Shown in pieces: positions 12,317-49,311 of a stretch of DNA of 64,000 bases. Position numbers and translations under genes: made by a program. Location of the stretch: the NCBI RefSeq assembly GCF_900108295.1, contig NZ_FNWK01000001.1:1736001-1800000 (forward strand). Reading direction: 5' to 3'. Under the pieces are notes generated by a model that was not told the origin of the DNA, ran no database searches, and saw only the letters and a program-made list of their open reading frames with translations. Source of the DNA: Sphingopyxis sp. YR583. GTDB taxonomy: Bacteria > Pseudomonadota > Alphaproteobacteria > Sphingomonadales > Sphingomonadaceae. Positions within the stretch are counted from its first letter, which is position 1; each line of letters starts with the position of its first letter.

Positions 12317-13002
12317 CCGCCTCCCCGCCGCTGATCGTGACGCGGCCCGAGCCGGGTAACGCGGCGACGGTCGAACGGGCGAGGGCGATGGGATTCGAAG
12401 CGTTTGCGATGCCGCTTTTCGACGCGCGGCCGGTCGACTGGACGCCGCCGCGAGCCGGCGATTACGATGCCTTGCTGCTGACCAGTGCCTTCGCTGCACG
12501 CTTGGCCGGGCAGGGGCTCGCCGAACTGGCATCGCTGCCTGTCCATGCCGTCGGTACAGCGACGGCGCGCGCGGCAGAGGCGGCGGGTCTGACGGTGGCC
12601 ATGACCGGATCGGCGGGCGCGCAGCGACTTCTTGACGACATGACGTCGGCAAATATCCGAAATATATTATGGCTTTGCGGCCAGGACCGGTCCGAATTCA
12701 GCGCGCTGGACGTCGCGGTCGTGCCGCTGCCCTGCTATGCCGTCGATCCGGTTCCTCCGCCCGCCGGATGGACCGAGCTGACGGCCGCGCCTGCCATCCT
12801 GCTTGCGCATTCGATGCGCGCGGCGCGGCGCATATCCGATCTTGTCGGTATGAGGCGCGATCATCTGTCGCTGGTCGCGATCAGCCCCGCGGTCGCGGCG
12901 GCGGCGGGTACAGGCTGGCGCGACCTTGCCATTGCGGAACAGCCGGACGATGTCGCAATATTGGCACAGGCGCGCGCTTTGTGGCACAAAGGTACGAAAT
13001 AG
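12313..13002 (+). CDS. hemD: Uroporphyrinogen-III synthase
   Basis: Cyclises hydroxymethylbilane with inversion of ring D. The 229-residue protein has weak sequence conservation, as is usual for HemD. The two-domain pattern is visible: [12 protein letters not shown] and [15 protein letters not shown] in the first half, [12 protein letters not shown] and [13 protein letters not shown] in the second. It starts inside the hemC stop (ATGA overlap), so its identity is firmly backed by position. Confidence 0.92.
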
Positions 13003-29881: not shown

Positions 29882-31480
29882 ATGACGCGCGCTACGCTTC
29901 ATAACGCGCTGACGGCGGTACGCGCCTATCGCGGCGCGGCGCACGCGGCGCTGACCGCACGGTTGGCTGCAACCCCGATCGATGGTCAGCAGCGCGCGGC
30001 GCACGGCTTTGCATGGGTCGCGACGACGGTTGCGGCGCTGGATGCGACGATCGACTGGCTCGATGCGGGCAAAGAGGCGAATCCGCTCGACGCGAAGATC
30101 GCCACGCTTGCCTTTGCCGAGAGCATCGGACAGCTCGCCGGCGGTCTGCCGATGGGGCAGAATGAAATCTTCCGTCCCGCCGACCTTGGCGTCGGTGCGG
30201 CGGCGCGCGCACTTGCCGACGCCTGTGCCGATCTGCTCGACGCCGATCATGCCGCGACCCGCGCCGACGTCGCCGCCGCGCTCGCCGAAGGGCATTGGCC
30301 GAGCGAGACATTGCATGACGCCGACCTAGACGCGATCCGCGATCAATATCGCCGCTTCACCGACGCTGCGATCATCCCGCACGCGCACGGCTGGCATCTC
30401 GCCAACGATCTGATCCCCGACGCGACGGTGCAGGCCATGGCCGACCTTGGCACCTTCGGCGTCTGCATTCCCGAGGAGTTCGGCGGTCTTGGCCTCGGCA
30501 AGCTCGTCATGTGCATCGTCACCGAAGAGCTGTCGCGGGGGTGGATCGGCACCGGTTCGCTCGGCACGCGATCTGAAATCGCGGGCGAATTGATCGTGCT
30601 CGGCGGCACCGAGGCGCAGAAGGCCGAATGGCTCCCGAAAATCGCCAGCGGCGAGATTCTGCCGACCGCGGTGTTCACCGAACCCGACGTCGGCTCGGAC
30701 CTTGGCTCGCTCCAGACGAAAGCGCGCCGCGAGGGACAACATTGGGTTATCGATGGCGCGAAGAACTGGATCACCCACGCAGCGCGCTCGGACCTGATGA
30801 CATTGCTCGCGCGCACCGTCCCCGACGCAAAGGGCTATGCCGGACTGTCGATGCTGCTCGTGCCCAAGCCGCGTGGGAGCGAGGCCGAACCATTCCCCGC
30901 CGCGGGCATGAGCGGCAGCGAGATCGAGGTGCTCGGCTATCGCGGCATGCGGGAATATGCGTTGCAGTTCGACGGGATGACGGCGCATTCCGATGCGCTG
31001 CTCGGCGGCGAGGAGGGACAGGGCTTCAAGCAACTGATGCGAACCTTTGAGGGCGCACGCATCCAGACCGCGGCGCGCGCGGTCGGGGTGGCGCGCCGCG
31101 CGCTCGAACTCGGCCTCGATTATGCGCGCGGCCGCAAACAGTTCGGCAAGGCGATCATCCATTTCCCGCGCGTCGCCGACAAGCTCGCGATGAGCCTCGT
31201 CGATTTCGTGATGGCGCGCGAACTGAGCTATGCCGCCGCGCGCGCGAAGGATTCGGGCAAACGCTGCGATATCGAGGCGGGCATGGCGAAGCTGCTGGGC
31301 GCGCGGGCGGCGTGGGCGAATGCCGATGCGAGCCTGCAGATTCATGGCGGCAACGGCTATGCGCTCGAATATGAGATCAGCCGTGTGCTTTGCGACGCGC
31401 GTATCCTCAACATTTTCGAGGGGGCTGCCGAGATTCAGGCGCAGGTAATCGCGCGCGGGCTGGTCGAGGGCCGAAACTAG
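29882..31480 (+). CDS. mcd: (2S)-methylsuccinyl-CoA dehydrogenase-like acyl-CoA dehydrogenase
   Basis: A 532-residue flavoprotein, about 150 residues longer than ordinary acyl-CoA dehydrogenases because of an N-terminal helical domain, as in Mcd of the ethylmalonyl-CoA pathway. Segments ELSRGWIGTGSLGTRSEIAG, AVFTEPDVGSDLGSL, IEVLGYRGMREY and RIQTAARAVGVA match what I know of Rhodobacter Mcd. The catalytic glutamate in NIFEGAAEIQAQ is near residue 513. A strong AAGGAAAAGGAA site precedes ATG 29882. Mcd oxidises methylsuccinyl-CoA to mesaconyl-C1-CoA. The 3' end overlaps the converging lyase gene by 4 bases. Confidence 0.8.
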   Translation: MTRATLHNALTAVRAYRGAAHAALTARLAATPIDGQQRAAHGFAWVATTVAALDATIDWLDAGKEANPLDAKIATLAFAESIGQLAGGLPMGQNEIFRPADLGVGAAARALADACADLLDADHAATRADVAAALAEGHWPSETLHDADLDAIRDQYRRFTDAAIIPHAHGWHLANDLIPDATVQAMADLGTFGVCIPEEFGGLGLGKLVMCIVTEELSRGWIGTGSLGTRSEIAGELIVLGGTEAQKAEWLPKIASGEILPTAVFTEPDVGSDLGSLQTKARREGQHWVIDGAKNWITHAARSDLMTLLARTVPDAKGYAGLSMLLVPKPRGSEAEPFPAAGMSGSEIEVLGYRGMREYALQFDGMTAHSDALLGGEEGQGFKQLMRTFEGARIQTAARAVGVARRALELGLDYARGRKQFGKAIIHFPRVADKLAMSLVDFVMARELSYAAARAKDSGKRCDIEAGMAKLLGARAAWANADASLQIHGGNGYALEYEISRVLCDARILNIFEGAAEIQAQVIARGLVEGRN

Positions 31481-32640
31481 AGCCAGAGCAACGGCTGGCG
31501 CACCGGAAAATTGCGCACGACCTCCGCTGTCGTGGGATCGGGATCGAGGTGTTGCCAAAGCTTCAGCCAGTCGGCGCGTTTTTGTGCCATGGCGCCGAAG
31601 AGCAGGCTCGGCTGGCGCACCGGAAAGCCGTCCCAATATTCGATATCGGGCGGAAGCGGCCATTTGCTCTTGTCCGCGATAAACGGTGCCATCCATGCGA
31701 TCGCGCCGCTGATCGAACGATCGTCGGAAGTCTGCCAGTCGATCAGCTCGCGGCCTCCGACGAGCCATGCTGTCGCCGCCAGCACGTCGAGATTGAAGAG
31801 TGAATAGGCATAGGGTTTGGTCCGCGCGAGTTCGAGCGGCTGGCGCCCGTCGCGTTCGATCTGGTTCGGGACGATGATCGTCTGCAGCCGGTGACGCGCT
31901 TCCTGAATCAGATCGTCGCGGCCGAGCAGTGCGGCGAACGACACCGTCTGGAGGAGCCAGCAGGTGCCATGATTGTTTTTTTCATCGCGTTCGGTGGTGC
32001 CGAAAGGAGAGGTGGTGAGCCAGTCCAGATATTCGGTGAACCAGCCCTCCACCCCCGCGCGGATCGCGGCATAGCCCGGCGCATCTTTGCGCGCGAACAA
32101 AGCTGCGGCGCGTGCGACCTCGACGATTTGCAGCGTGTCGATCACGCCGATCGCGCGGCCCGTGTTGACGCCGATGATCGCCTGCGCATGGTTGAGATTC
32201 GGGTTCATCCGCGTTTCCGGGTCGACGAACCAGCCACGAAGATGGCGCATCGTGGCGTCGGCGAACCGCGCTTCACCAGTTAGCTCCCAAAGCGCTGCGA
32301 GCGCCGGGACGGTGCGGCCGAAGGCGATCATCGCGTCGCGGTGACCGTCGAACTTGTCGGGGTTCGAACGGCCGTCGCGGCGCACATAGGCGCCGCCGGG
32401 ATTCGCCGGATCGGGCCACCAATAATCGCCTTCGGAATAATAGTCCTGCGGCCCTGCGGGGCTGCGCGGCGCGGGAATAACGGCGATGGTGCGCGGCGCC
32501 GCAGCGAGCAGCGCGGCTGCCTGCGGCAGCAGGCGGCGGCGCTCGATCGCGCGAATGTCGGGCGTGTGAAATTGCGGGCGTGCCCATGCTGCCGGGGCGG
32601 CGAGCAAGGCGGCAAGGAGCAGCGAGCGGCGCGCAATCAT
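31477..32640 (-). CDS. Alginate/glucuronan lyase-fold protein (PF05426-like), exported
   Basis: A 387-residue protein with a signal peptide (MIARRSLLLAALLAAPAAWA, twin-arginine-like start). It has the family block DYYSEGDYWWPDPANPGGAY near residues 67-85, NPNLNHAQAI, and the presumed catalytic set NNH at 222-224, R273 and Y279 (LART..YAYS). The fold is shared by PL5 alginate lyases and PL38 glucuronan/alginate lyases; the DYWWPDP block favours the PL38 side. It cleaves uronic-acid chains by beta-elimination. Third gene of an operon with a TonB receptor and a paralogous lyase; 9 bases follow its neighbour. Confidence 0.82.
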   Translation of the reverse strand: MIARRSLLLAALLAAPAAWARPQFHTPDIRAIERRRLLPQAAALLAAAPRTIAVIPAPRSPAGPQDYYSEGDYWWPDPANPGGAYVRRDGRSNPDKFDGHRDAMIAFGRTVPALAALWELTGEARFADATMRHLRGWFVDPETRMNPNLNHAQAIIGVNTGRAIGVIDTLQIVEVARAAALFARKDAPGYAAIRAGVEGWFTEYLDWLTTSPFGTTERDEKNNHGTCWLLQTVSFAALLGRDDLIQEARHRLQTIIVPNQIERDGRQPLELARTKPYAYSLFNLDVLAATAWLVGGRELIDWQTSDDRSISGAIAWMAPFIADKSKWPLPPDIEYWDGFPVRQPSLLFGAMAQKRADWLKLWQHLDPDPTTAEVVRNFPVRQPLLWL

Positions 32641-32649
32641 GTCCTGTCC

Positions 32650-33885
32650 TTATCGGATGCGATGGCGCAGCAACAGGTCGCCGCTGATCGTGCGTGGATA
32701 GGCACTGGGGCCCCAGGCGTCGTCGGCGCGAACGAGCAACTCGTCGAGCATGTCGGCGGGCCAGCCCTGTTCCTTGTGAGGCCAGCTGGCCCCCCGGCCG
32801 CGATAGGCAGCGACATAATCGGTCGCCCCGCGCAGCGAACGCCCTTTTTCGACGGTGCGATAGAGGTCGATGCCAAGGCATGCCGCGCTGTCGGCAACTA
32901 TATAGGCGGCATCGAGCGCATAGAGCGAATAATGGAAGCTGCGTGTGCGCGCCAGCTCTTTGGGCAGGGCGCCGGACGCGTCGACCTGCTGCGCGATCCG
33001 CGCTTTTGGAAAGGCGAGGGCGATCCTGCGCGCGATCTCCGGTTTGCGCGCGAATAATGCGAAGCGTGCAACCTGCGCATCGTACCACAGGCCGTGGTTG
33101 TTCGATGCCTTGCCCTCCGCCTTGCCGTTGGCGCTCTTCAGCATCCAGTCGAGATAGCGCGCGAACCAGCTTTCAAGCGCGCGGGTCTCGTCCGGCGTCA
33201 GCGCGCCCGACGGGGCGATCAGCCCTGCGGCGTCGATCACCCCGATGAAGCTGGCTCCATCGAGCACGCCCTCGGCGCGGCCATTCGAGACGCCCGGCAC
33301 CGCCTGCGCAAAATTCATATGCGGGTTCATGGCGGTCCCCGGATCGAGGAACCATGTGCGGATCACGCGCGCCGCGCCCTCGGCATATTTGCGCTCGCCA
33401 CTGTAATAGAAAGCGAGTGCGAGCGTGTCCGCGTCGCGCGCCATGCGGCTCAGCGCCGTGCGATCGAAACGATTGCTTTCGACGTCGGGGTTGGTGTCGC
33501 CGTCGCGGCGGACATAAGCGCCCTTGGGGTTTGCCGGGTTCGGCCACCAGTAACGCGCAAGGCTGACATAGTCGTGGCGGTCGCCCGAAACGGGGATGCT
33601 GCGCTTGTCCATCACCGAGGCGGATTTCGCCGCGAGTGCCTTGTCGGCGCGCCGGATCAGTTCGTCGTAAGCCGCTTTGATCGCCGGATCGTTCGGCAGC
33701 GCCGTCTTGATCGCTTCGAGATCGTCCGGGTGCAGCGAGAAGGTGCGGCGCCCATCGAACGATGCCGCATAGCCGTCGCTCGCCTGACAGGCGGGAGCCG
33801 GGGAAAAAGCCGCCGCCGCGGATGGAAAATACGCGGCGGCGGCCAGTATAGCCCAAGGGAGTCGGGCTAAAGTCGTTCGCTTCAC
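32650..33885 (-). CDS. Second alginate/glucuronan lyase-fold protein (PF05426-like), exported
   Basis: A 411-residue paralogue of the next gene. The signal peptide ends near ASAAAAFS, RYWWPNPANPKGAYVRRDGD is at about 111-130, NPHMNFAQAVPG follows, and the catalytic set NNH (262-264), R313 and Y319 is intact. The start is GTG 33885, inside the stop of the TonB receptor (GTGA), so the two are translationally coupled. An earlier in-frame extension is antisense-free receptor sequence in another frame and is rejected. With the first lyase it may split chain-internal and oligomer cleavage (inference). Confidence 0.82.
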   Translation of the reverse strand: MKRTTLARLPWAILAAAAYFPSAAAAFSPAPACQASDGYAASFDGRRTFSLHPDDLEAIKTALPNDPAIKAAYDELIRRADKALAAKSASVMDKRSIPVSGDRHDYVSLARYWWPNPANPKGAYVRRDGDTNPDVESNRFDRTALSRMARDADTLALAFYYSGERKYAEGAARVIRTWFLDPGTAMNPHMNFAQAVPGVSNGRAEGVLDGASFIGVIDAAGLIAPSGALTPDETRALESWFARYLDWMLKSANGKAEGKASNNHGLWYDAQVARFALFARKPEIARRIALAFPKARIAQQVDASGALPKELARTRSFHYSLYALDAAYIVADSAACLGIDLYRTVEKGRSLRGATDYVAAYRGRGASWPHKEQGWPADMLDELLVRADDAWGPSAYPRTISGDLLLRHRIR

Positions 33886-36809
33886 AGGCGGACCCGGAAG
33901 CCGAAGAAATATTGCGGGCCGCTGCGCGATACCTCGGCGATGCTGTCGTATCCGCCCTTGTACATGATATCCTGCGTGTTCGTGACGTTGAGCGCCTGCA
34001 GCTTGAGCTGGACATTTTTGGTGATGTCGTACTGTGCCGACAGGTTGAGGTAGGTGCCGCCGCGGATCTCGCGATTGGTGCCGCCATTCGGCTTGTAATA
34101 ACCCGAGCGGTAACGAAGGTTCGCGCGGAGCGAGAGGCCCCATTTTTCGAACCACACCGATCCGCTCGCGGTCCATTTCGACAGGCCGATGAGGTTCGCC
34201 GGATCGACATAGTCGGCGATCGGCGAGGTGTCGGGATATTCGAAATTGGCAAAGGCGCGGTTGACCGATCCCTGCACGCCGAAGCCATCGAGCGGGTCGG
34301 GCAGCCAGGTGAAGGCATGGCTCGCGGTCGCTTCGATGCCATACAGATGCCGCGTCTCGAGGTCGTTCGAGGGTGCGACGGGGTTGATCGTGAAGGTCTC
34401 GGTCACCGGTGTGCCGCCATCGCGGATCGTGGTGACGGTGATGTCCGACGGGATCGGTTCGGAGCGGCCGATCACCGTACCCTTTGCCCATTTATAATAG
34501 CCCGCGACCGAGATCAGCGTGTCCTGCGACGCGTAAAGTTCGAGGCTGGCGTCGAGGTTCCATGCGCGCAACGGCTTGAGGTTCGGGTTGCCGGTGGTCG
34601 CGTTGAAGATGATGTTGTCGACGCCCGTCGCCGACGTCGTCGGGTTGAGGTTCACCCCCGCGCCGAAGCTTTCGATCCCCGACCGCGCGATGGCGCGATA
34701 GGCGGCGAGGCGGAGTTTGACCTGCTGCGAGAGTTCGAAGGCGATATTCGCCGACGGCAGGAAATAATTATAGCTGCCCTTGGCTTTGTTGGTCTGGAGC
34801 TGGCCTGCCGGATCGACGCCGATCGAATAGGTGTCGCCGACGGTGTCGATCACGATGCGATAGGGCTGGCGAAAACCGATCGAGGTGATGTCGGTCTTGA
34901 CCCAGCGCAGGCCGATATTGCCGCTGAACGGCACGCTGCCCGCATCCGACGCGAAATTGGCCATCGCATATGCGGCATAGATGCGCTCGGTGACGTCGAT
35001 GTCGCTGGGGTCGCGGCCGTCGGCGGGATAGGGCAATGCGTCATCCGAACCGGCGAAAGTACGGAACAGGCAGTCGTTATCGAACGTCGCCCATTTGGTG
35101 ACGTTCGTGCCCATGCCGCGCATGTAGCTGGTGGTGGTGAAGGGGACGCGGCAGTTCTGGTTTGCTTGGGTGATCAGCGCGGTGACCTGTGCCGGGGTGC
35201 CAGGAATGGTGTTGAGATCGTTGTTGCGCGCATTGTCGTTGGTGCGCTGGTGATCCGACACGCGCCCGCCGAATTTCACGCTGGTGATGAAGCCGTCGAG
35301 TTCGCGGTCGATGTCGAGCCGTGCGGCCCATATCCGATCCTTGCGGTCGGTGACGAAGCGGTTGCGCGCATAGACGGCATTGTTCGCGGTCGCGAGGAAG
35401 AGGTTGGGGTCGGTGATATCGAAATTGTCGAACTCGACGACCGGCACGACATCGTCGCCCTCATAGGTCAGCGTGTAGCCGACGCGGCGCGTCGAGCGCA
35501 TGCGCGTCTGTTTCTGCGTTTCGGTGCGATGGCTGTTCGAATAGGAGGCGTCGAAGGCGACGTTCCAGCGGTCGGGCGACCAGATCAGGCTGAGCCCACC
35601 GCCAAGATATTCCTCGACGCGGCGCCGCATTTCGAGCTGGTTTTCAAGGTTCGAATTGCCGCGATAGCTGATGAGGGCGCCGGGCGAATAGCCGTTGCTG
35701 CCATTGCCGATGATCAGCGGCTGGACCCCGCGCAGTCCCTCGGTAATGCCAAGGACGTTGCGGTCCTCGAGACTGTTGCGCTTCGAATATTGGCCGTCGA
35801 GGGCAATCTCGAAATCGGGCGAGGGGCGCCACTGGATCGCGCCGATCAGCCCGTCGCGCACTTCCGACGTGGTTTGGGTCCGGAAGCTGCGCGACGAATT
35901 GGCGAAATAGGCATCGCCGCGGGTCTCGCCGACCAGCACCGGCGGTGTACCGGCGCTGCGCGGCCCTGTGGCGAAGGTACAATTCTGGTTGGCGCCGGCG
36001 CCCGTCTGTACCGCCGTCGTTCCGGTCAGCTGGAAGGGGTTGTTCGCCGAGGTGTTGCAGAGCTGGAAAGTCGAATTGGCGTTGTAATAATCCTCGGGCG
36101 CGGTCGTGTCCTGCCGCTGGTAACCGATCGATATGCCGATATCGCCAAGCCCGGTCGAGAACTGGTCGGTGTAAGAGAAGTTGGCGCGATAACCGAGGCC
36201 GTCGTGCTGATAGACGTCATTGTCCTGCGGCTGGAAATCGCCGCGCACCTCGAACTGGACGCGGCGCTTGCCATAGTCGAGCGGCTTCATCGACTTGAGC
36301 TCGATAATTCCGCCGACGCCGCCTTCGAGGAAGTCGGCGCGCTGCGATTTATAGACGAGCACGCCGTTGACGAGTTCCGACGGGAATTGCTGGAACGCGA
36401 CCGAGCGGTCGGGGCCCGCAGTCGACACCTCGCGCCCGTTGAAGGTCGAGAAGCTGAGCGTCGGGCCGAGGCCGCGCACCGACAGCTCGTTGGCATTGCC
36501 CTTGAAGCGGTCGGCCGAGACGCCGACGATACGTTCGAGTGTGTCGCCAACCGAGTTGTCGGGGGTCGCGCCGATCTCGTCGCTTACGAGGCCGTCGACG
36601 ACGACGTCGGCGGCGCGTTTGAATTCGATCGAGCTCCGCTGCGTTGCGCGGGTGCCGGTGACGAGGATCTCGTCGCCGCTATCGACCGCTGCGGGCTGGT
36701 CGCTTTCGATTTCGGCGGGTGCTTCCTGCGCCTGTGCGGGCAGGGCGGCGAAAAGCGCCGCCGAGGCCAGCAAGGCTGCGCGGGCCGGCAAGGCCGATGG
36801 TGACTTCAT
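33882..36809 (-). CDS. TonB-dependent receptor of the Xanthomonas/Caulobacter carbohydrate type
   Basis: A 975-residue receptor. The signal peptide ends ALPAQAQEAP. EILVTGTRATQRSSIEFKRA and VVVDGLVSDEIGATPDNSV mark the TIGR01782-like subfamily, often found with polysaccharide genes. The plug carries LSVRGLGPTLSFSTFNGRE, and the protein ends in aromatic/hydrophobic GFRVRL. GGAGAGGGAA precedes ATG 36809. It is the first gene of the operon with the two lyases, so it probably imports their oligosaccharide products. Two operator types lie upstream. Confidence 0.93.
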   Translation of the reverse strand: MKSPSALPARAALLASAALFAALPAQAQEAPAEIESDQPAAVDSGDEILVTGTRATQRSSIEFKRAADVVVDGLVSDEIGATPDNSVGDTLERIVGVSADRFKGNANELSVRGLGPTLSFSTFNGREVSTAGPDRSVAFQQFPSELVNGVLVYKSQRADFLEGGVGGIIELKSMKPLDYGKRRVQFEVRGDFQPQDNDVYQHDGLGYRANFSYTDQFSTGLGDIGISIGYQRQDTTAPEDYYNANSTFQLCNTSANNPFQLTGTTAVQTGAGANQNCTFATGPRSAGTPPVLVGETRGDAYFANSSRSFRTQTTSEVRDGLIGAIQWRPSPDFEIALDGQYSKRNSLEDRNVLGITEGLRGVQPLIIGNGSNGYSPGALISYRGNSNLENQLEMRRRVEEYLGGGLSLIWSPDRWNVAFDASYSNSHRTETQKQTRMRSTRRVGYTLTYEGDDVVPVVEFDNFDITDPNLFLATANNAVYARNRFVTDRKDRIWAARLDIDRELDGFITSVKFGGRVSDHQRTNDNARNNDLNTIPGTPAQVTALITQANQNCRVPFTTTSYMRGMGTNVTKWATFDNDCLFRTFAGSDDALPYPADGRDPSDIDVTERIYAAYAMANFASDAGSVPFSGNIGLRWVKTDITSIGFRQPYRIVIDTVGDTYSIGVDPAGQLQTNKAKGSYNYFLPSANIAFELSQQVKLRLAAYRAIARSGIESFGAGVNLNPTTSATGVDNIIFNATTGNPNLKPLRAWNLDASLELYASQDTLISVAGYYKWAKGTVIGRSEPIPSDITVTTIRDGGTPVTETFTINPVAPSNDLETRHLYGIEATASHAFTWLPDPLDGFGVQGSVNRAFANFEYPDTSPIADYVDPANLIGLSKWTASGSVWFEKWGLSLRANLRYRSGYYKPNGGTNREIRGGTYLNLSAQYDITKNVQLKLQALNVTNTQDIMYKGGYDSIAEVSRSGPQYFFGFRVRL

Positions 36810-36856
36810 TTCCCTCTCCTCTTTTTTGCCGCCGCCGTCCGCGACGCTGACCCGCT

Positions 36857-36870
36857 TGATACCGGTGTCA
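36857..36870. promoter_or_regulatory. LacI-like palindrome upstream of the TonB receptor/lyase operon
   Basis: TGATACCGGTGTCA is one base from a perfect 14-base palindrome TGACACCGGTGTCA with a central CG, the usual LacI-family form. A near-identical site lies at 40643-40656. No LacI gene is in the window. Confidence 0.5.
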
Positions 36871-36878
36871 TTTTTATA

Positions 36879-36906
36879 TGTAATACAACTTGAGAAATGT
36901 ATTACA
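36879..36906 (-). promoter_or_regulatory. Tandem GntR-like boxes overlapping the promoter
   Basis: On the minus strand AAGTTGTAATACAT and AAGTTGTATTACAT form a direct repeat at 19-base spacing. Each contains GTnnnAC, the core recognised by FadR-type GntR proteins (TTGTnnnACAA with one mismatch). The upstream box overlaps the predicted -10. Confidence 0.6.
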
Positions 36907-36926
36907 ACTTTGAGAAGGTAAGTCAA
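36899..36926 (-). promoter_or_regulatory. Predicted promoter of the TonB receptor/lyase operon
   Basis: TTGACT (36921-36926) and TAATAC (36899-36904) are 16 bases apart on the minus strand. The -10 lies inside a GntR-like box, which fits repression. Confidence 0.5.
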
Positions 36927-36982
36927 TTGCCTGCATCGTGTGGACGAAGGCGGGCCGGTTTTGATGATCCGTTCCTTTTATA

Positions 36983-38134
36983 TCAATGTTTTAGCTGTTT
37001 ACTTGACAGATCGTACATAGCGGTTCCGGCGAGCAGATAGGCGCCGCTGCCATAGAATTGCGTTTCCGTTGCCGATACGCTGTCGGGGCGATCGCCAACC
37101 TGTTGAACCCAGCCGAGCATGCCGTCGGGCTGCACCGCGCGCTGCAATGCAGCCCATCCGCGCACGGCCGAAGGCTGATAGGTCGCGCGATCGAGCAAGC
37201 CGTTGTCGACCCCCCAGGCAAAGGCATAGGTGAAAAACGCGGTTCCGCTCGATTCGGGCGGGGCGCCGGGGTCGTTGTCGAGCAGCGAGGCGGGCCAGTA
37301 TCCGTCGGCCTTTTGCAGCGTGACGAGCCTTGCCGCCATGCCCTTGAACAGCTTCTCGTAATAGGGGCGCTGCGGATCCTTTTTGTCGAGCACCTGCAGC
37401 ACGCGCACGAGACCGCCCATCACCCAGCCGTTGCCACGGCTCCAGAACAGCTTGCGGCCCTTCGCGTCGCTCATGTCGAAGAAACGGCTGTCGCGAAAAT
37501 AGAGCTGCTCCGACGGATCGAAGAGATAGTCGGTCGTCGCCTTCCACTCCTGATGCACGAAATCGGCGTAGCGCCTGTCGCCCGTTGCCTTGGCGAGACG
37601 GAGCATCGTCGGTGGCGCCATGAACAGCGCATCGCACCAGCACCACCGGTCGGTGCAGGTCGACGTACCCTTGCCGGGCGCGACCGGGATGAATTCGAGT
37701 CCGATCGTCGGGCGATTGGCGAGCACATGGTCGAAATAGGCGCGCGTCGGCGCAATCGCTTTCCTGCCTTCGCCATTTTGTGCTGCCCATAGCCAAGCCT
37801 GTCCGATCAACTGGTCGTCGGCGTGAAACGGCAGGTCGCCCATCTGCCATTTTTCGGCGCGGCCGAGGTCGAGGAGCGGTTTCGCATAGGCCTTATCGCG
37901 GTTCGCGAGTTCGGTGAGCGCGATCCAGAAGGTCGCCTGCTGCCAGTCGCGCACTTCCTGCACGCTTTTGCGCGCTGCAGGCATCGTCGCCCAGTTGGTG
38001 CGATTCGCAAGCTGCCAGTCGGCCACACGCTTCGTTTCGGCCAGTATCACCGCGGGCTTGGGCATGACGGGCTCGGCCGGAGCGACCGCGGCGGCGGGGC
38101 TGCTCATCATCAGGGCAAAGAGGCTCAGCGACAT
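36983..38134 (-). CDS. GH105 unsaturated uronyl/rhamnogalacturonyl hydrolase
   Basis: Hydrates and removes the 4,5-unsaturated uronic acid left at the non-reducing end by polysaccharide lyases. The 383-residue (alpha/alpha)6-barrel protein has the catalytic HADDQLIGQ at 104-112, WCWCDALFMAPP, WSRGNGWVMGGL and SGTAFFTYAFAWGVDNG, all typical of GH105/GH88. The N-terminus is a weak signal peptide (MSLSLFALMMSSPAAAV), so the enzyme may be periplasmic. It overlaps the GH3 gene by 10 bases. GH88 is the main alternative. Confidence 0.88.
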   Translation of the reverse strand: MSLSLFALMMSSPAAAVAPAEPVMPKPAVILAETKRVADWQLANRTNWATMPAARKSVQEVRDWQQATFWIALTELANRDKAYAKPLLDLGRAEKWQMGDLPFHADDQLIGQAWLWAAQNGEGRKAIAPTRAYFDHVLANRPTIGLEFIPVAPGKGTSTCTDRWCWCDALFMAPPTMLRLAKATGDRRYADFVHQEWKATTDYLFDPSEQLYFRDSRFFDMSDAKGRKLFWSRGNGWVMGGLVRVLQVLDKKDPQRPYYEKLFKGMAARLVTLQKADGYWPASLLDNDPGAPPESSGTAFFTYAFAWGVDNGLLDRATYQPSAVRGWAALQRAVQPDGMLGWVQQVGDRPDSVSATETQFYGSGAYLLAGTAMYDLSSKQLKH

Positions 38135-40602
38135 GGTGTTTCCTTTATGGGCGTGAGGGCGATCGACGAGAGGGTGAGGCGCAGCGGCGCGTTCGACGAC
38201 AGCGCGAAGGGGGCTGTGACATTGTCGAGGCGGACGTCGGGAAGGCAGGAAAGCGGGATCGAAAGGCTCTGCCAGCCCTTGCTCGCGATCGCTGCGAGGC
38301 GCGGCCCGATATCGAGGCGCGCGGTACAGCCGGGACCGCAGCGCAATTCGAGCGTCGCGGGCGCGGTTGGTGCCTGATCGATCTTGAGGTCGACCGTCAG
38401 TGCGAGCGATCCGGCGCCCGACAGATTGGCTGCGCGCGGATTGGCGACGATCAACGTCCCGCGCGACTTGCCCGCCCAGATGATTTCACGCGCATCCTCC
38501 TGCGCGTCGCGGTCGATCGGGCGCACCGCGATCGCGCCATTGTCGGCGGCGCCGCTGATCGCCTGCGGGCTGTCGTTCGCTCCGTCGATCTGCAGTTGGC
38601 GTGTGCCTATCGGCCGGCCGCGCGCGAAGATCGGGCCGGTGAGCGGCTGCTCGACGATAATGCCGGGGTCTTCGGAAAGCGCCCGCGCGCGTTTGCGGTC
38701 GGTCAGGGTCAGGCCGAAACCGAAAGGATAGAGCGGCTTGTAACCGGCATCGCCGACATTGAGCGGCGCCCCTCTGGCGTCGGCGGGCCATGAGAAGGGG
38801 AGCTTGCCTTTGAAGTCGGCCTTGCCGAACAGGATATCGGCGACGCCGCCGCCTTCGGATCCCGGCAACCACGCCGCGACGAACGCGTCGGCGGCGTTGA
38901 TATGGCGATTGACCCACAAAGGGCGCCCCGAAAGAAAGACCGCCACGACGGGAATGCCCGCAGCCTTCAGCCGGTTCATTATGTCCAGATTGCCGCGCGT
39001 GTCGTCGAAATAGAGGTCGGCGCGGTCGCCCTGAAACTCGGCATAGGGGTCCTCGCCGAATACGATAATCGCGGCATCGGGCTTTGCCGAATAGCGGCCA
39101 TCGACCACGAGTTCGGCGGAGCCGCCGCCCGCCTGCGCTACGTCACGCACCCCCGCGAAGATCGATGTCGCGCCGGGGAAATGTTCGGGCCGTGTGCCGG
39201 TGCCCTGCCAGGTCAGCGTCCAGCCGCCGGACTGTCTCGCGACATCGTCGGCGCCGTCGCCCACCACGAGTATGCGCGCATCGGCCTTGAGCGGGAGGAT
39301 GCCGTTGCTCTTGAGCAGGACGAGCGATTCGCGCACCGCTTGTCGCGCAATCGCGCGATGCTCGGGCGCGCCGAGCAGATCATAGCGCGCGGCATAGGGG
39401 CGCGACGAAGGCCTGCCTGCCCCGAAAAGCCCCGCGCGCAGCTTGACCCGCAAGATACGGCGCACCGCATCTTCGAGCCGTCCCATCGGTAGCGCGCCCG
39501 ACCGCGCTGCGGCGAGTGTCGAGGCGTAAAGGCCCTTCCAGCTCGCGGGCCCCATATAGATGTCGAGCCCCGCAGCGATCGAGGCAGGGCAGTCGGTCGG
39601 GGTGCAGCCCGGCACCTTGGCATGGCCGTCCCAATCGCCGACAACGAGCCCGTCGAAGCCCCAGCGCTGTTTGAGAACGCCGGTCAGCAGGCTGACGTTG
39701 CCGTGCATCTTGACGCCATTCCATCCCGAGAAGCTGGCCATCACGCTTTGCACGTCGGCCTTGAGCGCGGCGACATAGGCGGGGGCGTGGAGCCGAATCA
39801 GTTCGGCCTCGTCGATTCTCGCATCGCCGCGGTCGCGACCGTCCGCTGTGCCGCCGTCGGCAAGGAAATGCTTGGCCGTCGCGATGATATGCGGGCCCCT
39901 GAGCCAGTCGGGATCACCGCGCCGTCCCTGGATCCCGTGGACGAGGGCTGCGGCATAGGATTCAGCGATGGCGGGATCCTCGCCAAAGCTTTCATAGGTG
40001 CGGCCCCAGCGGTCGTCGCGTGCGACCGCGATCGTCGGCGCAAAGGTCCAGTCGAGCCCGGTGACGCGCATCTCGATCGCTGTCGCTTGCCCGATCTTTT
40101 CCATCAGCGCCGGGTTCCGTGCTGCGCCAAGGCCGATATTGTGTGGAAACAATGTCGCGCCGACGATATTGTTATGGCCGTGGACCGCATCGGACCCCCA
40201 CATCACCGGGATGCGCGGCAGGTTGCCGTTCGGGCGCATCGACGCGTCATAATAGGCGTCGGCGGCTGCGACCCATGCCGATGCGGGGCCGAATTCATCG
40301 CCGCCGGGCGACGAACTGCCGCCGTTGAGGATCGAGCCGAGATGATAGGTCGCGACGTCTTCGGGTGTCGTGCTGCCGATATCGCCCTGGATGATCTGAC
40401 CGACCTTCTGCTCGATCGACATCGCCGCGATCAGGGTGTCGATTCGTTGCTCGATGGCGGGGTCGGTGACAGGCGCTGCCAGTGCGGGCCAGGATTCGGG
40501 ATGCACGGCCCCGGTGGCCTCGGCGGCCGCCGACGCGGAGCCTGCAAACAGCGCTGCCGTGGACAGGCTTGCCACGGTCAGGGCGCGCCAGGCGCTTCGC
40601 AT
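38125..40602 (-). CDS. GH3 exo-beta-glucanase / beta-glucosidase, exported
   Basis: An 825-residue protein. The signal peptide ends ALFAGSASAAAEA, and the GH3 N-domain has VMWGSDAVHGHNN and KHFLADGGT. The catalytic nucleophile is D323 in LVVGDWDGHAKV, followed by the GH3 C-domain and a final beta-rich region of about 150 residues as in ExoP-type 1,3/1,4-beta-glucan glucohydrolases. GGGAGAG lies 8 bases before ATG 40602; the GTG just before it is less likely. First gene of an operon with GH105, divergent from manD. Confidence 0.92.
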   Translation of the reverse strand: MRSAWRALTVASLSTAALFAGSASAAAEATGAVHPESWPALAAPVTDPAIEQRIDTLIAAMSIEQKVGQIIQGDIGSTTPEDVATYHLGSILNGGSSSPGGDEFGPASAWVAAADAYYDASMRPNGNLPRIPVMWGSDAVHGHNNIVGATLFPHNIGLGAARNPALMEKIGQATAIEMRVTGLDWTFAPTIAVARDDRWGRTYESFGEDPAIAESYAAALVHGIQGRRGDPDWLRGPHIIATAKHFLADGGTADGRDRGDARIDEAELIRLHAPAYVAALKADVQSVMASFSGWNGVKMHGNVSLLTGVLKQRWGFDGLVVGDWDGHAKVPGCTPTDCPASIAAGLDIYMGPASWKGLYASTLAAARSGALPMGRLEDAVRRILRVKLRAGLFGAGRPSSRPYAARYDLLGAPEHRAIARQAVRESLVLLKSNGILPLKADARILVVGDGADDVARQSGGWTLTWQGTGTRPEHFPGATSIFAGVRDVAQAGGGSAELVVDGRYSAKPDAAIIVFGEDPYAEFQGDRADLYFDDTRGNLDIMNRLKAAGIPVVAVFLSGRPLWVNRHINAADAFVAAWLPGSEGGGVADILFGKADFKGKLPFSWPADARGAPLNVGDAGYKPLYPFGFGLTLTDRKRARALSEDPGIIVEQPLTGPIFARGRPIGTRQLQIDGANDSPQAISGAADNGAIAVRPIDRDAQEDAREIIWAGKSRGTLIVANPRAANLSGAGSLALTVDLKIDQAPTAPATLELRCGPGCTARLDIGPRLAAIASKGWQSLSIPLSCLPDVRLDNVTAPFALSSNAPLRLTLSSIALTPIKETPCR

Positions 40603-40642
40603 CACTCAATCTCTCCCATGTGAAACGGTCGGGTTTTTACCT

Positions 40643-40656
40643 TGACACCGGTGACA
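40643..40656. promoter_or_regulatory. LacI-like palindrome between GH3 and manD
   Basis: TGACACCGGTGACA is one base from the perfect palindrome TGACACCGGTGTCA and the partner of the site at 36857-36870. It lies 40 bases before the GH3 start. Confidence 0.5.
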
Positions 40657-40689
40657 TATCTCTTTCCTTTTGATGCGAGTGTCAATAAG

Positions 40690-40702
40690 GTTGTCACACA
40701 AC
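40690..40702. promoter_or_regulatory. GntR-like operator between GH3 and manD
   Basis: GTTGTCACACAAC is a perfect 13-base palindrome of the form TTGTnnnACAA. It lies 28 bases before the manD start, and on the other strand just upstream of a TTGACA (40680-40685) that may be the GH3 -35. Confidence 0.6.
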
Positions 40703-40729
40703 TAATCGATGTGGCGATGAGGGGATGGA

Positions 40730-41941
40730 ATGCCGAAGATCGTGTCAGCCCGGGTGATATTGACCGCGCCGGGTCGCAATTTCACGACGCTGAAGATCGA
40801 GTGCGACGACGGGACGACCGGCGTCGGCGATGCGACGCTCAACGGCCGCGAACTCGCGGTTGCGGCCTATCTGTCCGAACATGTCGTCCCCTGCCTAATC
40901 GGACGCGATGCCCACCGGATCGAGGATATCTGGCAATATCTCTACAAGGGCGCCTATTGGCGGCGCGGGCCGGTGACGATGGCGGCAATTGCTGCGGTCG
41001 ACATGGCGCTGTGGGACATCAAAGGAAAGGTCGCCGGGCTGCCGGTGTACCAGCTGCTTGGCGGCGCGGCGCGCGAGGGGTGCATGGCCTATGGCCACGC
41101 CAACGGAACGACGATCGAGGATACGATCGAGGCTGCGCTCGATTATCGGCGGCAAGGATATAGGGCGATCCGCCTGCAGTGCGGCGTGCCCGGGATGGCG
41201 TCGACCTATGGCGTCAGCAAAGATCGCTATTTTTACGAGCCCGCCGACAATGACCTGCCGACCGAGAATGTCTGGTCGACGGCGAAATATATGCGCGTTG
41301 TGCCCGAACTTTTCGCGGCGGCGCGCGAAGCGCTGGGCTGGGACGTCCATCTGCTCCATGACATCCATCACAGGCTGACGCCGATCGAGGCGGCGCGGCT
41401 CGGCAAGGATCTCGAGCCGTACCGGCCGTTCTGGATCGAGGATGCGACCCCGGCGGAGGATCAGGATGCATTCCGCCTGATCCGCCAGCATACGACGACG
41501 CCACTCGCGGTCGGCGAAATCTTCTCGTCGATCTGGGACTGCAAGGCGCTGATCGAGAACCGGCTGATCGACTATATTCGCGCGACTGTGCTCCACGCCG
41601 GCGGCATCACGCATATGCGCCAAATCGCGTCGCTCGCCGATCTCTATCAAATCCGCACCGGCTGCCACGGCGCGACCGACCTGTCGCCGGTGACGATGGC
41701 GGCGGCGCTGCACCTTGGTCTCGCGATCCCCAATTTCGGCGTGCAGGAATATATGCGGCATACGGACGAGACCGACGCTGTCTTCCCACACGCCTGGCGC
41801 TTTGAGGACGGCATGCTTCATCCCGGCGATGTACCGGGCCTAGGCGTCGATATTGACGAGGCGCTCGCCGAATCCTTTCCTTATGCCCGCGCCTATCTGC
41901 CGGTGAACCGGCTTGAGGACGGGACGATGTGGAGCTGGTGA
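40730..41941 (+). CDS. manD: D-mannonate dehydratase, enolase superfamily (ManD type)
   Basis: Dehydrates D-mannonate to 2-keto-3-deoxygluconate, the step after glucuronate isomerisation and reduction. The 403-residue protein carries metal ligands D211, E237 and E263, the general bases R148/Y160 pair and H213 (HDIHH), and [11 protein letters not shown]. These sit one residue from the positions reported for Novosphingobium ManD. It begins the plus-strand operon with the DUF4861-like gene and the GntR regulator. Its presence points to D-glucuronate as the liberated sugar. Confidence 0.92.
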
Positions 41942-42834
41942 TGCGTTTGCCGTCTCTGGCGCTTGCCTTGCTGGTCGTACCAGCGGCCGGGCAGGAACAT
42001 GAACCGCTTCGGCCGGCAACAGCGGAAGAGCAGAGGGTGCGCGCGGCGGTGGTGATCGCCGATTATCGTTTCGACGACCTGCTGTGGGAAAACGACCGGA
42101 TCGCGCATCGCATCTATGGCCGCGCGCTCGAAAGAGCCGAGCCGCCCTCGTCGTCGGGGATCGACGTGTGGGGAAAGCGGGTGCGCTGGCCCTTCATGGA
42201 CCGCCAACTGCGCACCGGCGATCAGCACGCCGACCATGGCGAGGGCATAGACTTCTATAATGTCGGTACCGGCCGTGGAACCGGCGGGCTCGGCATCTGG
42301 TACGACAACAAGCTTTGGACCTCGCGCAACTATGTCCGCCCGCGCATCCTGCAGTCGGGCGGAGACATTGCCGATTTTGCGGTCGATTATGATCCCTGGC
42401 CGGTCGATACGTTGCGCACGGTGCGTGAGACGCGGCGCTTCGCTTTGATGGCGGGGACGAATTTTACCCGGCTGACCTCGACCATCGCGTCGAGCAGCGA
42501 GGCCGAACTGATCGTCGGGATCGGAATCTCGAAACGGCCGATCAATGGGAGCAAGCTGGGCGAGATCCGGCAGGATCGCGCGAACGCGCGCATGAGCTGG
42601 TGGGGCCCTGCCGATGGCGAAAAGGGCCGGATGGCGGCGGCCGTGATGGTCGACCCGGCTGCCTTTGCCGGCTTCGTCGAGGACGCCGACAATTATCTGA
42701 TCCTCGTTCGCGTCCAGCCGGGCACGCCGTTTGTCTATTATAGCGGCGCGGCGTGGGATCGCGGAGGCGACTTTGCGAGCGCGGTTGCGTGGAATAGCTA
42801 TGTCGATGCGCAGCGGCCTGATTTCCGGCCCTAG
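41941..42834 (+). CDS. DUF4861-like exported protein
   Basis: A 297-residue protein with a short signal peptide ([17 protein letters not shown]). The domain resembles DUF4861, recognised by DDLLWENDRIAHRIYG, HADHGEGIDFYNVGTGRGTGG and SRNYVRPRILQSG. Family members occur in pectin, alginate and other uronate-rich utilisation loci; no reaction is established that I know of. ATG 41941 shares one base with the manD stop (TGATG); ATG 41929 would add four residues. A sugar-binding or lyase-like role is possible. Confidence 0.78.
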   Translation: MRLPSLALALLVVPAAGQEHEPLRPATAEEQRVRAAVVIADYRFDDLLWENDRIAHRIYGRALERAEPPSSSGIDVWGKRVRWPFMDRQLRTGDQHADHGEGIDFYNVGTGRGTGGLGIWYDNKLWTSRNYVRPRILQSGGDIADFAVDYDPWPVDTLRTVRETRRFALMAGTNFTRLTSTIASSSEAELIVGIGISKRPINGSKLGEIRQDRANARMSWWGPADGEKGRMAAAVMVDPAAFAGFVEDADNYLILVRVQPGTPFVYYSGAAWDRGGDFASAVAWNSYVDAQRPDFRP

Positions 42835-42867
42835 CCAGTTTCGCGGCGCAATGATAACGCAGCATCC

Positions 42868-43575
42868 ATGGCGGTAACCAAGGCGGCGTCGCTGGCGGAC
42901 GATCTCGTCCAGCGCTTCGAGGAACAGATCGAAACGGGCGAAATGCCCGTGGGATCACGTTTCCCGACCGAAAAAGACATCACTGAGACGTTCGGCGTCA
43001 GCCGCACCGTCGTGCGCGAGGCTTATTCGCGCCTCGCGGCGCGCGGCCTGCTCGTGTCGCGGCGCGGATCGGGGGCCTATGTCCCCGACGGAGCGCAATA
43101 TCGCGCCTTCCAGGTGACCGCCGAGGAAGTCGGCGAGATCGATGATGTCTTGAAGCTGCTTGAGATGCGAATGGGGTTCGAAGCCGAGATGGCGGACCTT
43201 GCCGCGCGCCGCCGGACCGATGCCGATCTGGCCGCACTACGTCATGCGCTCGACGCGATGGAGGAAAGCAGCGACGTCGATGCGTCGGTCGCTGCGGACG
43301 CCGCCTTTCATGCGGCGATCGCGAGCGCGACAGGCAATTCCTATTTTCTGCGCTTCACCCAGTTTCTCGGCGTGCGCCTTGTCCCCTCGCGGCGGCTCTA
43401 CCTGCAGGGCGACGATCCGGTTCAGCACCAGCGCTATGCCCATACGATCAACCGCGACCATGAGGCGATCGTCGTTGCGATCGAGGCGGGCGACCCCGTG
43501 GCTGCGCGGCGCGCGGCACGCCGCCACATCGAAAAATCGATCCTGCGCTATCGGACACTTAAGGAGAGCCGTTAA
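42868..43575 (+). CDS. GntR-family regulator with FCD domain (FadR subfamily)
   Basis: A 235-residue regulator. The winged-helix HTH spans residues 10-75 (GEMPVGSRFPTEKDITETFGVSRT and LVSRRGSGAYV). The all-helical FCD ligand domain has FHAAIASATGNSYF and HEAIVVAIEAGDPVAARRAARRHI, which supply the metal-site histidines. It is last in the manD operon and the natural candidate to bind the GTnnnAC boxes at 36879-36906 and 40690-40702. The inducer is probably a uronate or aldonate (inference). Confidence 0.9.
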   Translation: MAVTKAASLADDLVQRFEEQIETGEMPVGSRFPTEKDITETFGVSRTVVREAYSRLAARGLLVSRRGSGAYVPDGAQYRAFQVTAEEVGEIDDVLKLLEMRMGFEAEMADLAARRRTDADLAALRHALDAMEESSDVDASVAADAAFHAAIASATGNSYFLRFTQFLGVRLVPSRRLYLQGDDPVQHQRYAHTINRDHEAIVVAIEAGDPVAARRAARRHIEKSILRYRTLKESR

Positions 43576-43672
43576 GCCAACTTCCCTTGGTCAGCCGAAT
43601 CACTCGACACGGTCGGCCGGGAATGGGGCAGGCGGGAAATTAGCTATCTACTGACCTTGATTTCGACTCGTG

Positions 43673-44170
43673 ATGCTCTATTCCAAGCCCGTGCAAGGCG
43701 ACCCCGACAATTATATAAGCCTGCTGTCTGCCGCGCAGATCGAAACGTTGCGGCATGTTTACGAGCATAAAAATTCCAAGCAGATCGCGCGCCTGATGAA
43801 CGTCTCGCCGCACACGGTCGACGAGCGGGTGCGCCGGGTGTTAAAGAAACTTAATGTTTCTAACAGGATAGAGGCTGCGCGTATCCTGGCGGTTAACGGT
43901 GTCTTCGATCATGTTACCCCTTATCAGCCTTTGACATATCAATTGATCGACCTTGGCGACGTTTCCCCGTCCGACGATGCGGATCCGGGGCGCAGTTCGT
44001 TTCGGCGATTATTCGATATAGGTTCGCCATTTCCTACCGCGTCCCAGCCGGCCAACCGGCACGGGTTGATGGAAAGGATAATCTGGCCGATTTTGATCGC
44101 ATTCGCGACAATCTTGGCTTTCTCCGCCCTCTATTCGATCCTTGTCGGGCTCGGTCGTGTTTTGACTTGA
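43673..44170 (+). CDS. LuxR-type HTH protein with C-terminal membrane helix
   Basis: A 165-residue protein. Residues 15-75 form a GerE/LuxR HTH (LSAAQIETLRHVYE, SKQIARLMNVSPHTVDERVRRVLKKLNVSNRIEAARIL). A disordered linker leads to one strongly hydrophobic helix near the C-terminus (IIWPILIAFATILAFSALYSILVGL). There is no receiver or autoinducer domain, so it is an unusual membrane-tethered DNA-binding protein. ATG 43673 follows a GTG at 43670. It opens a four-gene run before the flagellar cluster. Confidence 0.8.
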   Translation: MLYSKPVQGDPDNYISLLSAAQIETLRHVYEHKNSKQIARLMNVSPHTVDERVRRVLKKLNVSNRIEAARILAVNGVFDHVTPYQPLTYQLIDLGDVSPSDDADPGRSSFRRLFDIGSPFPTASQPANRHGLMERIIWPILIAFATILAFSALYSILVGLGRVLT

Positions 44171-45618: not shown

Positions 45619-46365
45619 CTATTCGGTCATTTCCTTCATCATGCGGTCGACCTTGATCATTGCTTCGCGCTTGATCTGGCAGATGCGCGCGGCGCTGACG
45701 TCGAGCGTCAGCCCGATTTCGTGCAGGTTGAGTTCCTCGAAGAAATAGAGCTGCAGGACCATCTGTTCGCGCTCGGAGAGGCGTCCGACGCACTGGCGCA
45801 GCGCCCCCATCAGATCGTCCCGCTCGCACCGCTCGTCGGCACCTTCGTCTTCGTCAGCGGCAAGGAAGGCGCCGATATCGGTCAACTCGTCGAGCGAGGT
45901 CGAACGGCCGTGCGTCGCATTGCGTTCGAGCGCGAAATAGTCCTCGGCCGACATATCGAACGCCACCGCCATTTCGGCGGGGGTCGGCGCGCGCATCAAT
46001 TGTTGTTCGAGCGCGGCGCGCATCGCGTGGATCCGCTTTGCGGCGACCATCGCCGAACGACCGACATCGGCCTCGCGGCGCAGCTGGTCGATCATCGCGC
46101 CGCGGATGCGGGTCGTGGCATAGGTGGCAAAGGCAAACCCGCGTTCTTCATAGTTGCGGCTCGCCTCGATCAGCGCGATCAGCCCCGTCTGGATCAGGTC
46201 GTCGAGTTCGCTCGTCCGCGACACACGCGAAAACACCTGCCAGGCGATCTTGCGGACCAGCGGCGAATATTCCTCGACCAGCGCCTCGACGCTTTCCCCA
46301 TAGCCGCGTGCGCGCGACGTCCGGCTGGTGGCCCCGGCAAATTGCTCGGCGGGCTCAATTCTCAT
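45619..46365 (-). CDS. fliA: Flagellar sigma factor FliA (sigma-28)
   Basis: Directs RNA polymerase to late flagellar promoters. The 248-residue protein has the sigma-28 region 2 ELDDLIQTGLIALIEASRNYEERGFAFATYATTRIRG in order. Region 4 ends EELNLHEIGLTLDVSAARICQIKREAM. ATG 46365 is chosen because GGAGG lies 9 bases before it; it overlaps the flhA stop by 11 bases. ATG 46389 is a weaker alternative. Its anti-sigma factor FlgM is encoded 3.3 kb away, and three candidate target promoters are in the window. Confidence 0.94.
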   Translation of the reverse strand: MRIEPAEQFAGATSRTSRARGYGESVEALVEEYSPLVRKIAWQVFSRVSRTSELDDLIQTGLIALIEASRNYEERGFAFATYATTRIRGAMIDQLRREADVGRSAMVAAKRIHAMRAALEQQLMRAPTPAEMAVAFDMSAEDYFALERNATHGRSTSLDELTDIGAFLAADEDEGADERCERDDLMGALRQCVGRLSEREQMVLQLYFFEELNLHEIGLTLDVSAARICQIKREAMIKVDRMMKEMTE

Positions 46366-48478: not shown

Positions 48479-49311
48479 GCCGCGCCTCCCGAAAGCGACG
48501 CGAGCCGCCGATAGGCATCGGCGGCAAAGCCCATCGAGAGCTTTTTGGGCATAGGCTGGATATCCATCATTTGCAGGGGCGGACGCCCCCCTCCGTTGCC
48601 TGGGCCGGCAAGTCCGATCGAGCTGCTCGCTTGCACGTGCCAACCCCCGGGGGCGAAGGGCTTCATATTTTCGATCTTGCCGCCGCCATCCTCGAGCTTC
48701 ACGCGAAAGCGTTCGCGGATCTCGGCGAGACTGCGCATGCTGCCGTCGGGCGCGTAAAAGACCGACCGGTTCGCGGCGGCGGCCTCGGGCATCATCGATG
48801 CGCCGGGCTGGTCAGGGTTCGTTTCGAGCGCCGTCAGGAATTTGGCGGCGCCGCCGCTCCCGAGGAAATGCGCAAGATAGAGGTCGACCGGTTCGGCGGC
48901 GCGGCCGATACGACTTTCAAGATAGTCGCGATTGTCGCCGGTCAGCGCAGCGGCCATGCTCGACGATGCCGTCGGATCGTCGCGCAGGTCGAGAATCTGC
49001 TGGCGGAGCACCGGATCGGCGACCGTCAGCCGTCCCGACGCGTCGCGGCCGATCGCATCGGCCGCCCAGGCGAGCCCATGGTTGGCGCCATGGCGGTCGA
49101 GGGTCGCGAGCCAGGTCTGTTTTGTGAACTGATACAGTCCGCGCGCCGAAGAAGTTGGCGCCTTTGCGGTCGGATTATAGCCGCTTTCGACGCGTGCGAC
49201 GTCGAACAGATAATCGAAATCGATCCCCGTGCGCGCCGACGCGCTCTGCACCGCATCCAGGACGGGTGCGGCGATGCGGGTCGCGGCATTGGGATTGTTG
49301 ATTGCGTTCAT
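48475..49311 (-). CDS. Flagellar-associated lytic transglycosylase (stand-alone muramidase)
   Basis: A 278-residue protein with an SLT/lysozyme-like fold: VARVESGYNPTAKAPTSSARGLYQF carries the catalytic glutamate near residue 42 and the GLYQF substrate segment, followed by LYLAHFLGSGGAAKFL. No signal peptide is visible, so export may go through the flagellar system. The FlgJ in this cluster lacks a muramidase domain, so this protein probably supplies the peptidoglycan-cutting activity. First gene of the flhA-fliA operon, behind a sigma-54 promoter. Confidence 0.85.
   Translation of the reverse strand: MNAINNPNAATRIAAPVLDAVQSASARTGIDFDYLFDVARVESGYNPTAKAPTSSARGLYQFTKQTWLATLDRHGANHGLAWAADAIGRDASGRLTVADPVLRQQILDLRDDPTASSSMAAALTGDNRDYLESRIGRAAEPVDLYLAHFLGSGGAAKFLTALETNPDQPGASMMPEAAAANRSVFYAPDGSMRSLAEIRERFRVKLEDGGGKIENMKPFAPGGWHVQASSSIGLAGPGNGGGRPPLQMMDIQPMPKKLSMGFAADAYRRLASLSGGAA

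Follow-up and report, generated by a model that had tools for sequence, protein, structure and literature searches.

Which polysaccharide is degraded by a group of lyase, glycosidase and receptor genes in Sphingopyxis sp. YR583, and how are the released sugars processed? The locus comprises eight genes at 31477-43575 of the 64,000-nucleotide stretch analysed here (the window, G000:C1:1736001-1800000, from a genome of 4.31 Mb), arranged as two divergent operons: GH3, GH105, a TonB receptor, LyB and LyA on the minus strand, and ManD, DUF4861 and a GntR regulator on the plus strand. An earlier interpretation of the same DNA, made without database searches (the sequence-only reading), had named these genes and this arrangement, and profile matches confirmed both. 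We infer that a homopolymer of glucuronic acid (GlcA) is the simplest fit to the gene set, and consider that the locus probably serves polyglucuronate utilisation, with β-1,4-glucuronan as the most likely substrate. The features are as follows.

31477..32640, minus strand: LyA, PL38-like lyase of a separate lineage, 387 amino acids (PF05426, 249.7 bits)
32650..33885, minus strand: LyB, PL38-type lyase, 411 amino acids (PF05426, 263.8 bits over the 404 amino acids scanned)
33882..36812, minus strand: TonB-dependent receptor, 976 amino acids (TIGR01782, 522 bits, cut-off 310)
36878..36907, read on the minus strand: putative tandem operators of the receptor promoter, TTGTAATACAT and TTGTATTACAT, 19 bp apart
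36983..38134, minus strand: predicted unsaturated uronyl hydrolase of the GH88/GH105 type (PF07470, 229 bits, cut-off 26.6)
38125..40605, minus strand: accessory GH3 protein, exo-1,3/1,4-beta-glucanase-like (3usz, E 1.7e-213)
40691..40701, no strand assigned: putative operator TTGTCACACAA between the divergent operons, kept in 34/34 loci
40730..41941, plus strand: ManD, predicted D-mannonate dehydratase (NF043051, 727.8 bits, cut-off 550; 3thu, E 6e-240)
41929..42834, plus strand: DUF4861 protein, 301 amino acids, exported-looking (PF16153, 157 bits, cut-off 22.3)
42868..43575, plus strand: GntR/FCD regulator (PF00392 and PF07729, both above cut-off)

Is this set of genes more than a local coincidence? 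A LyB relative (E<=1e-10) is present in 36 of the 80 Sphingopyxis genomes searched, that of YR583 included; 30 of these carry a LyB orthologue with at least 70% identity and six a single weaker match of the LyA type. Regions from the 35 other genomes were compared, and two were set aside: L043 stops at a contig end, and L052 encodes a LyA-like protein (58%) with the other core genes absent. In the remaining 33 comparable loci a gene was counted as present when its best match reached at least 60% identity. LyA, GH105, ManD and GntR are each found in all 33, the LyA count being partly by construction since the loci were picked via a lyase match, followed by DUF4861 (29/33), LyB and the receptor (28/33 each). 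The core genes keep their relative order throughout, and such recurrence suggests that the grouping is more than chance. The invariant genes thus form a uronate set, in agreement with the earlier proposal of a uronic-acid polysaccharide locus.

The exception is GH3, which occurs in only seven of the 33 loci. It is therefore accessory and cannot define the substrate, so that the β-linked glucan rich in GlcA favoured by the sequence-only reading loses the gene on which it rests. A mixed glucose/glucuronate polymer for which GH3 would be essential (partly oxidised cellulose, a sphingan or another exopolysaccharide) is in our view unlikely. The GH3 gene does belong to the operon, its frame overlaps that of GH105 by 10 bp, and the closest solved chain, 3usz, labelled 'Exo-1,3/1,4-beta-glucanase', is a true exo-β-glucanase; however, 26 of the 33 loci dispense with it while keeping the rest of the core (counted at the locus only). 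Among the nine proteins scanned there was no match to sulfatase, α-L-rhamnosidase, hexosaminidase, galactanase or further glycosidase families, and the missing rhamnosidase argues against a gellan-like sphingan, another of the substrates proposed earlier.

What do the two lyases indicate? In sequence and fold they are closest to solved PL38 enzymes; LyB matches 3nfv (E 9.5e-72) and 8bdq (E 9.5e-55). At the positions mutated in the BoPL38 entries (Y91, D108, Q173, N242, H297 and Y298), LyB retains six of six residues and carries Tyr319, His318 and His264. LyA retains five and has Ala278 in place of His297, while its Tyr279 and His224 are equivalent to Tyr298 and His243 of BoPL38. A histidine at the H297 position is found in 0/104 LyA-named rows versus 50/55 LyB-named rows. 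This residue is not strictly required, since the solved PL38 chain 3nfv has glycine there. By these sequence comparisons LyA represents a separate, widespread lyase lineage lacking a His297 equivalent, with relatives in Acidobacteria, Bacteroidota, Betaproteobacteria and other groups, and LyB is probably an endo-acting glucuronan lyase, its endo mode being a prediction. PL5 was also considered: the A1-III match of LyB reaches only E 1.3e-5, with 33.6 bits against a PL5-type NCBIfam cut-off of 429, and LyA matches no PL5 chain at E<=0.01. Both proteins are best described as PL38-like, PL5 being the less likely assignment.

Family membership does not by itself point to one polymer. According to two papers, CUL-I and TpPL38A cut β-1,4-glucuronan, Aly38A and BoPL38 are alginate lyases, and RiPL38 cuts hyaluronan and, weakly, chondroitin (PMC13027841, PMC9029943); CUL-I is described there as cleaving glucuronan and not alginate (PMC9029943). 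With PL38 activities so mixed, the substrate has to be decided by the neighbouring genes. Could the locus serve alginate, with the PL38 lyases cutting the polymer and GH105 acting on unsaturated oligo-mannuronates? The alginate activity of BoPL38 and Aly38A would allow this, and both LyA and LyB match the Pfam alginate lyase model. However, the genome encodes a separate PL17-type, alginate lyase-like protein (PF05426, Hepar_II_III_C and Alg17C_C domains) at a different locus on another contig (C3:242281-245865, L003), which makes alginate less likely as the substrate here. The established alginate pathway is not known to need ManD, UxaC or GH105, and LyB-like genes with alginate-like neighbours in other genera of the same bacterial family nearly all lack GH105, ManD and DUF4861 in the fetched flanks. 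We therefore regard alginate as quite unlikely, as did the sequence-only reading, which had argued against plain alginate.

Of the neighbours, ManD acts on D-mannonate, derived from D-glucuronate. It is the only mannonate dehydratase candidate found in the genome, searches for UxuA (PF03786) and for a second ManD at E<=1e-5 having given no match. Where are the other steps encoded? A second uronate cluster lies 45-69 kb from the locus (G000:C1:1824292-1848171; L075, L076). KduI (375 bits, cut-off 250), KduD (409 bits, cut-off 339) and a PfkB kinase are encoded about 50.5-52 kb from the locus end, and an MFS transporter, UxaC (PF02614, 256 bits) and a fructuronate-reductase-like protein 65-67 kb away. 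UxaC scores above its Pfam cut-off and KduI and KduD above their NCBIfam cut-offs; the fructuronate-reductase-like protein matches the fructuronate reductase model best (331 bits, versus 172 for tagaturonate reductase). The cluster also encodes a TonB receptor, an altronate/galactarate-dehydratase-like protein, a GH43 protein, carboxylesterases and a pectate-lyase-like protein (329.5 bits against a cut-off of 840), and we call it pectin-type because of the last four kinds of gene. The one reaction of the glucuronate route missing from this cluster would be that of ManD, and the earlier proposal of an exit through ManD gains support from the UxaC and fructuronate-reductase-like genes. UxaC is present in 35 of the 36 lyase-bearing Sphingopyxis genomes versus 25 of the 44 others (Fisher p 1.7e-5, relatedness not controlled), and the lyase-bearing genome without it is the one with L052, where the core locus is missing. 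Orthologues of KduI, KduD and KdgK (93-96%) lie within ~11 kb of lyA in Sphingopyxis sp. HIX.

GH105 has a signal peptide-like N-terminus. Its nearest solved chain is 4ce7 (E 5.3e-59), an unsaturated glucuronyl hydrolase acting on ulvan; 5noa and 4q88 follow, and YteR (1nc5, E 5e-13) ranks lower. This ranking counts in favour of polyglucuronate. Could the substrate then be a GlcA-containing plant, algal or animal glycan, such as arabinogalactan side chains, ulvan or hyaluronan? The affinity of GH105 to ulvan- and Bacteroides-type enzymes, the plant-polysaccharide genes of the neighbouring uronate cluster and the hyaluronan activity reported for RiPL38 would agree with it, but sulfatase, rhamnosidase, hexosaminidase and galactanase families gave no match among the nine proteins scanned, and we hold this to be the least probable of the alternatives.

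Several observations weigh against the polyglucuronate assignment itself. The solved PL38 chains closest to LyB carry alginate lyase labels, and PL38 as a family comprises several activities, alginate and hyaluronan/chondroitin lyases included. LyB-like genes in other genera of the same bacterial family often adjoin KduD- and KdgK-like genes without ManD or GH105, so that LyB on its own is no specific marker of glucuronan. The fructuronate-reductase-like protein stays below its NCBIfam cut-off of 603, and the KdgK-like kinase below every NCBIfam cut-off. Glucuronan is nevertheless, on indirect grounds, the most likely of the substrates named in the sequence-only reading; characterised PL38 enzymes cut alginate and hyaluronan as well as glucuronan (PMC13027841).

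Polyglucuronate utilisation would proceed as follows. The TonB receptor would import glucuronan polymer or large oligomers, and the two PL38-like lyases would cut GlcA-GlcA bonds by β-elimination, with chemistry of the Tyr298/His243 type suggested by the conserved residues, leaving 4,5-unsaturated ends. GH105 would release unsaturated uronate, to be converted by KduI and KduD to 2-keto-3-deoxygluconate (KDG), while the remaining saturated D-glucuronate would reach the same KDG via UxaC, fructuronate reductase and ManD. DUF4861 may aid the GH105 step, either providing what GH105 acts on or processing what it releases, and GH3, where present, may trim glucose off mixed or partly oxidised glucans. 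The GntR regulator would repress both divergent promoters via TTGTNNNACAA, and this repression probably extends to the second uronate cluster at a distance of 45-69 kb.

What supports such regulation? TTGTNNNACAA occurs once within 130 bp before manD in 34/34 loci, 31-50 bp from the start; its arms are invariant and the third centre base varies (20 C, 12 G, 2 T). About 12 bp to the left of this site are nearly equally conserved, and some of the conservation may therefore reflect the promoter. Among 28 receptor promoters, 27 contain at least one site and 20 contain two, 18-19 bp apart. The GntR/FCD regulator is presumed to bind this motif, which is not enriched overall: the genome holds 16 perfect sites, versus 49 for the backwards control pattern. 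Among the 16 is TTGTCATACAA, located 177 bp ahead of the TonB receptor gene of the second cluster (PF00593, 131 bits). A near-site, TTGTCATACAT, falls in the 100-bp gap preceding four genes in a row, the last of which encode UxaC and the fructuronate-reductase-like protein. In eight of the 33 loci, orthologues of the second-cluster receptor (85-91% identity) stand directly beside lyA, and five of the eight have the same perfect site in the adjoining gap; in the remainder of the second cluster of one of these genomes (L077, L078) the sites were not found. Only five FCD-type regulators were found in the genome: that of the locus, another close to the PL17 gene, and three at other places, with none in the second cluster. 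The shared site before the second receptor and the lack of an FCD regulator there make it plausible that both clusters are under the control of the GntR protein. A further perfect site (TTGTGGCACAA) lies at window 12979-12989. The FCD-type regulator near the PL17-type gene is at C3:235872, ~6 kb from that gene.

What could DUF4861 do? Its PF16153 match spans profile positions 120-370 of 380 only, and with 193.7 bits it falls below the cut-off of 320 for the BT3233 family (NF058564). The structure model (predicted local distance difference test score 90.6) gave fold matches, and the fold is predicted to be a mutarotase-like supersandwich. In four other proteins (L139:7363-9549, L182:310-2853, L183:1318-3870 and L184:1159-3864) DUF4861 and a GH88/105 domain are joined in a single chain, in either order, and DUF4861 is predicted to be a partner of GH105.

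Further details concern gene calls and surroundings. The frame overlaps of GH3/GH105, receptor/LyB and ManD/DUF4861 fit co-transcription. The lyB start is probably the GTG at 33885, overlapping the receptor stop; the resulting 411 amino acids agree in length with the database copy from the window itself and with most close relatives. The receptor starts with the ATG at 36812 and is of the Xanthomonas/Caulobacter type (TIGR01782), and is predicted to import polymer or large oligosaccharides; no SusD match was found among the nine proteins scanned, so that the locus lacks the SusC/SusD pair of Bacteroidota-type polysaccharide utilisation loci. The closest named database relatives of the window proteins are Sphingopyxis proteins. 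A flanking acyl-CoA dehydrogenase gene (19/33 loci) and a LuxR-like gene (24/33) are, at these frequencies, neighbours and not locus parts. The LuxR-like gene, at window 43670-44170 directly behind the GntR gene, encodes a small LuxR/GerE-domain protein, and after the locus, at window 45619-48643, are what we take to be flagellar-type genes, encoding a FliA-like sigma factor and a FlhA-like protein.

How does the locus compare with known systems? The enzyme families are known; the combination, the control sites and the DUF4861 partner look undescribed, and our literature searches in open-licence papers found no description of this gene combination. Novelty lies in DUF4861, in the LyA lineage and in the possible shared regulon. 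It is conceivable, if doubtful, that DUF4861 is a new enzyme of uronate polysaccharide breakdown, standing alone with a supersandwich fold (as a lyase, a dehydratase or a mutarotase-like enzyme) and serving GH105, that LyA founds a separate lyase lineage working without a His297 equivalent, and that the two, together with one GntR protein that also controls a distant pectin-type cluster, make up an undescribed glucuronan regulon. What is known of polyglucuronate use by bacteria comes mainly from single lyases such as CUL-I and TpPL38A (PMC9029943, PMC13027841). With its regulator, the locus presents a pathway that is complete, compact and open to testing, and it yields concrete hypotheses for DUF4861, beside or fused to GH105, and for the LyA lineage. 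The route to D-mannonate and KDG through UxaC and a fructuronate-reductase-like protein resembles the D-glucuronate (Ashwell) pathway of E. coli (UxaC-UxuB-UxuA); unlike it, Sphingopyxis has ManD, of the enolase superfamily, in place of UxuA and within a polysaccharide locus, with the earlier steps ~66-69 kb away, which shows how ManD can be detached from the rest of the route. BoPL38 of Bacteroides ovatus (8bdq and the 9fh/9fi entries) differs in acting on alginate and in its His297, which has no equivalent in LyA; its gene neighbourhood presumably differs from the Sphingopyxis locus as well. In the ulvan pathway of Formosa agariphila, an auxiliary dehydratase, P29_PDnc, is reported to prepare the substrate for P33_GH105, a possible role for DUF4861 (PMC8511951); however, P29_PDnc was predicted there via PL37, and the Sphingopyxis locus has no sulfatase match. 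Another close system is CUL-I of Brevundimonas sp. SH203, a PF05426/PL38-type lyase of an alphaproteobacterium with polyglucuronate as substrate (PMC5477187; PMC9029943), although one PF05426 protein is reported there, versus two in the Sphingopyxis locus.

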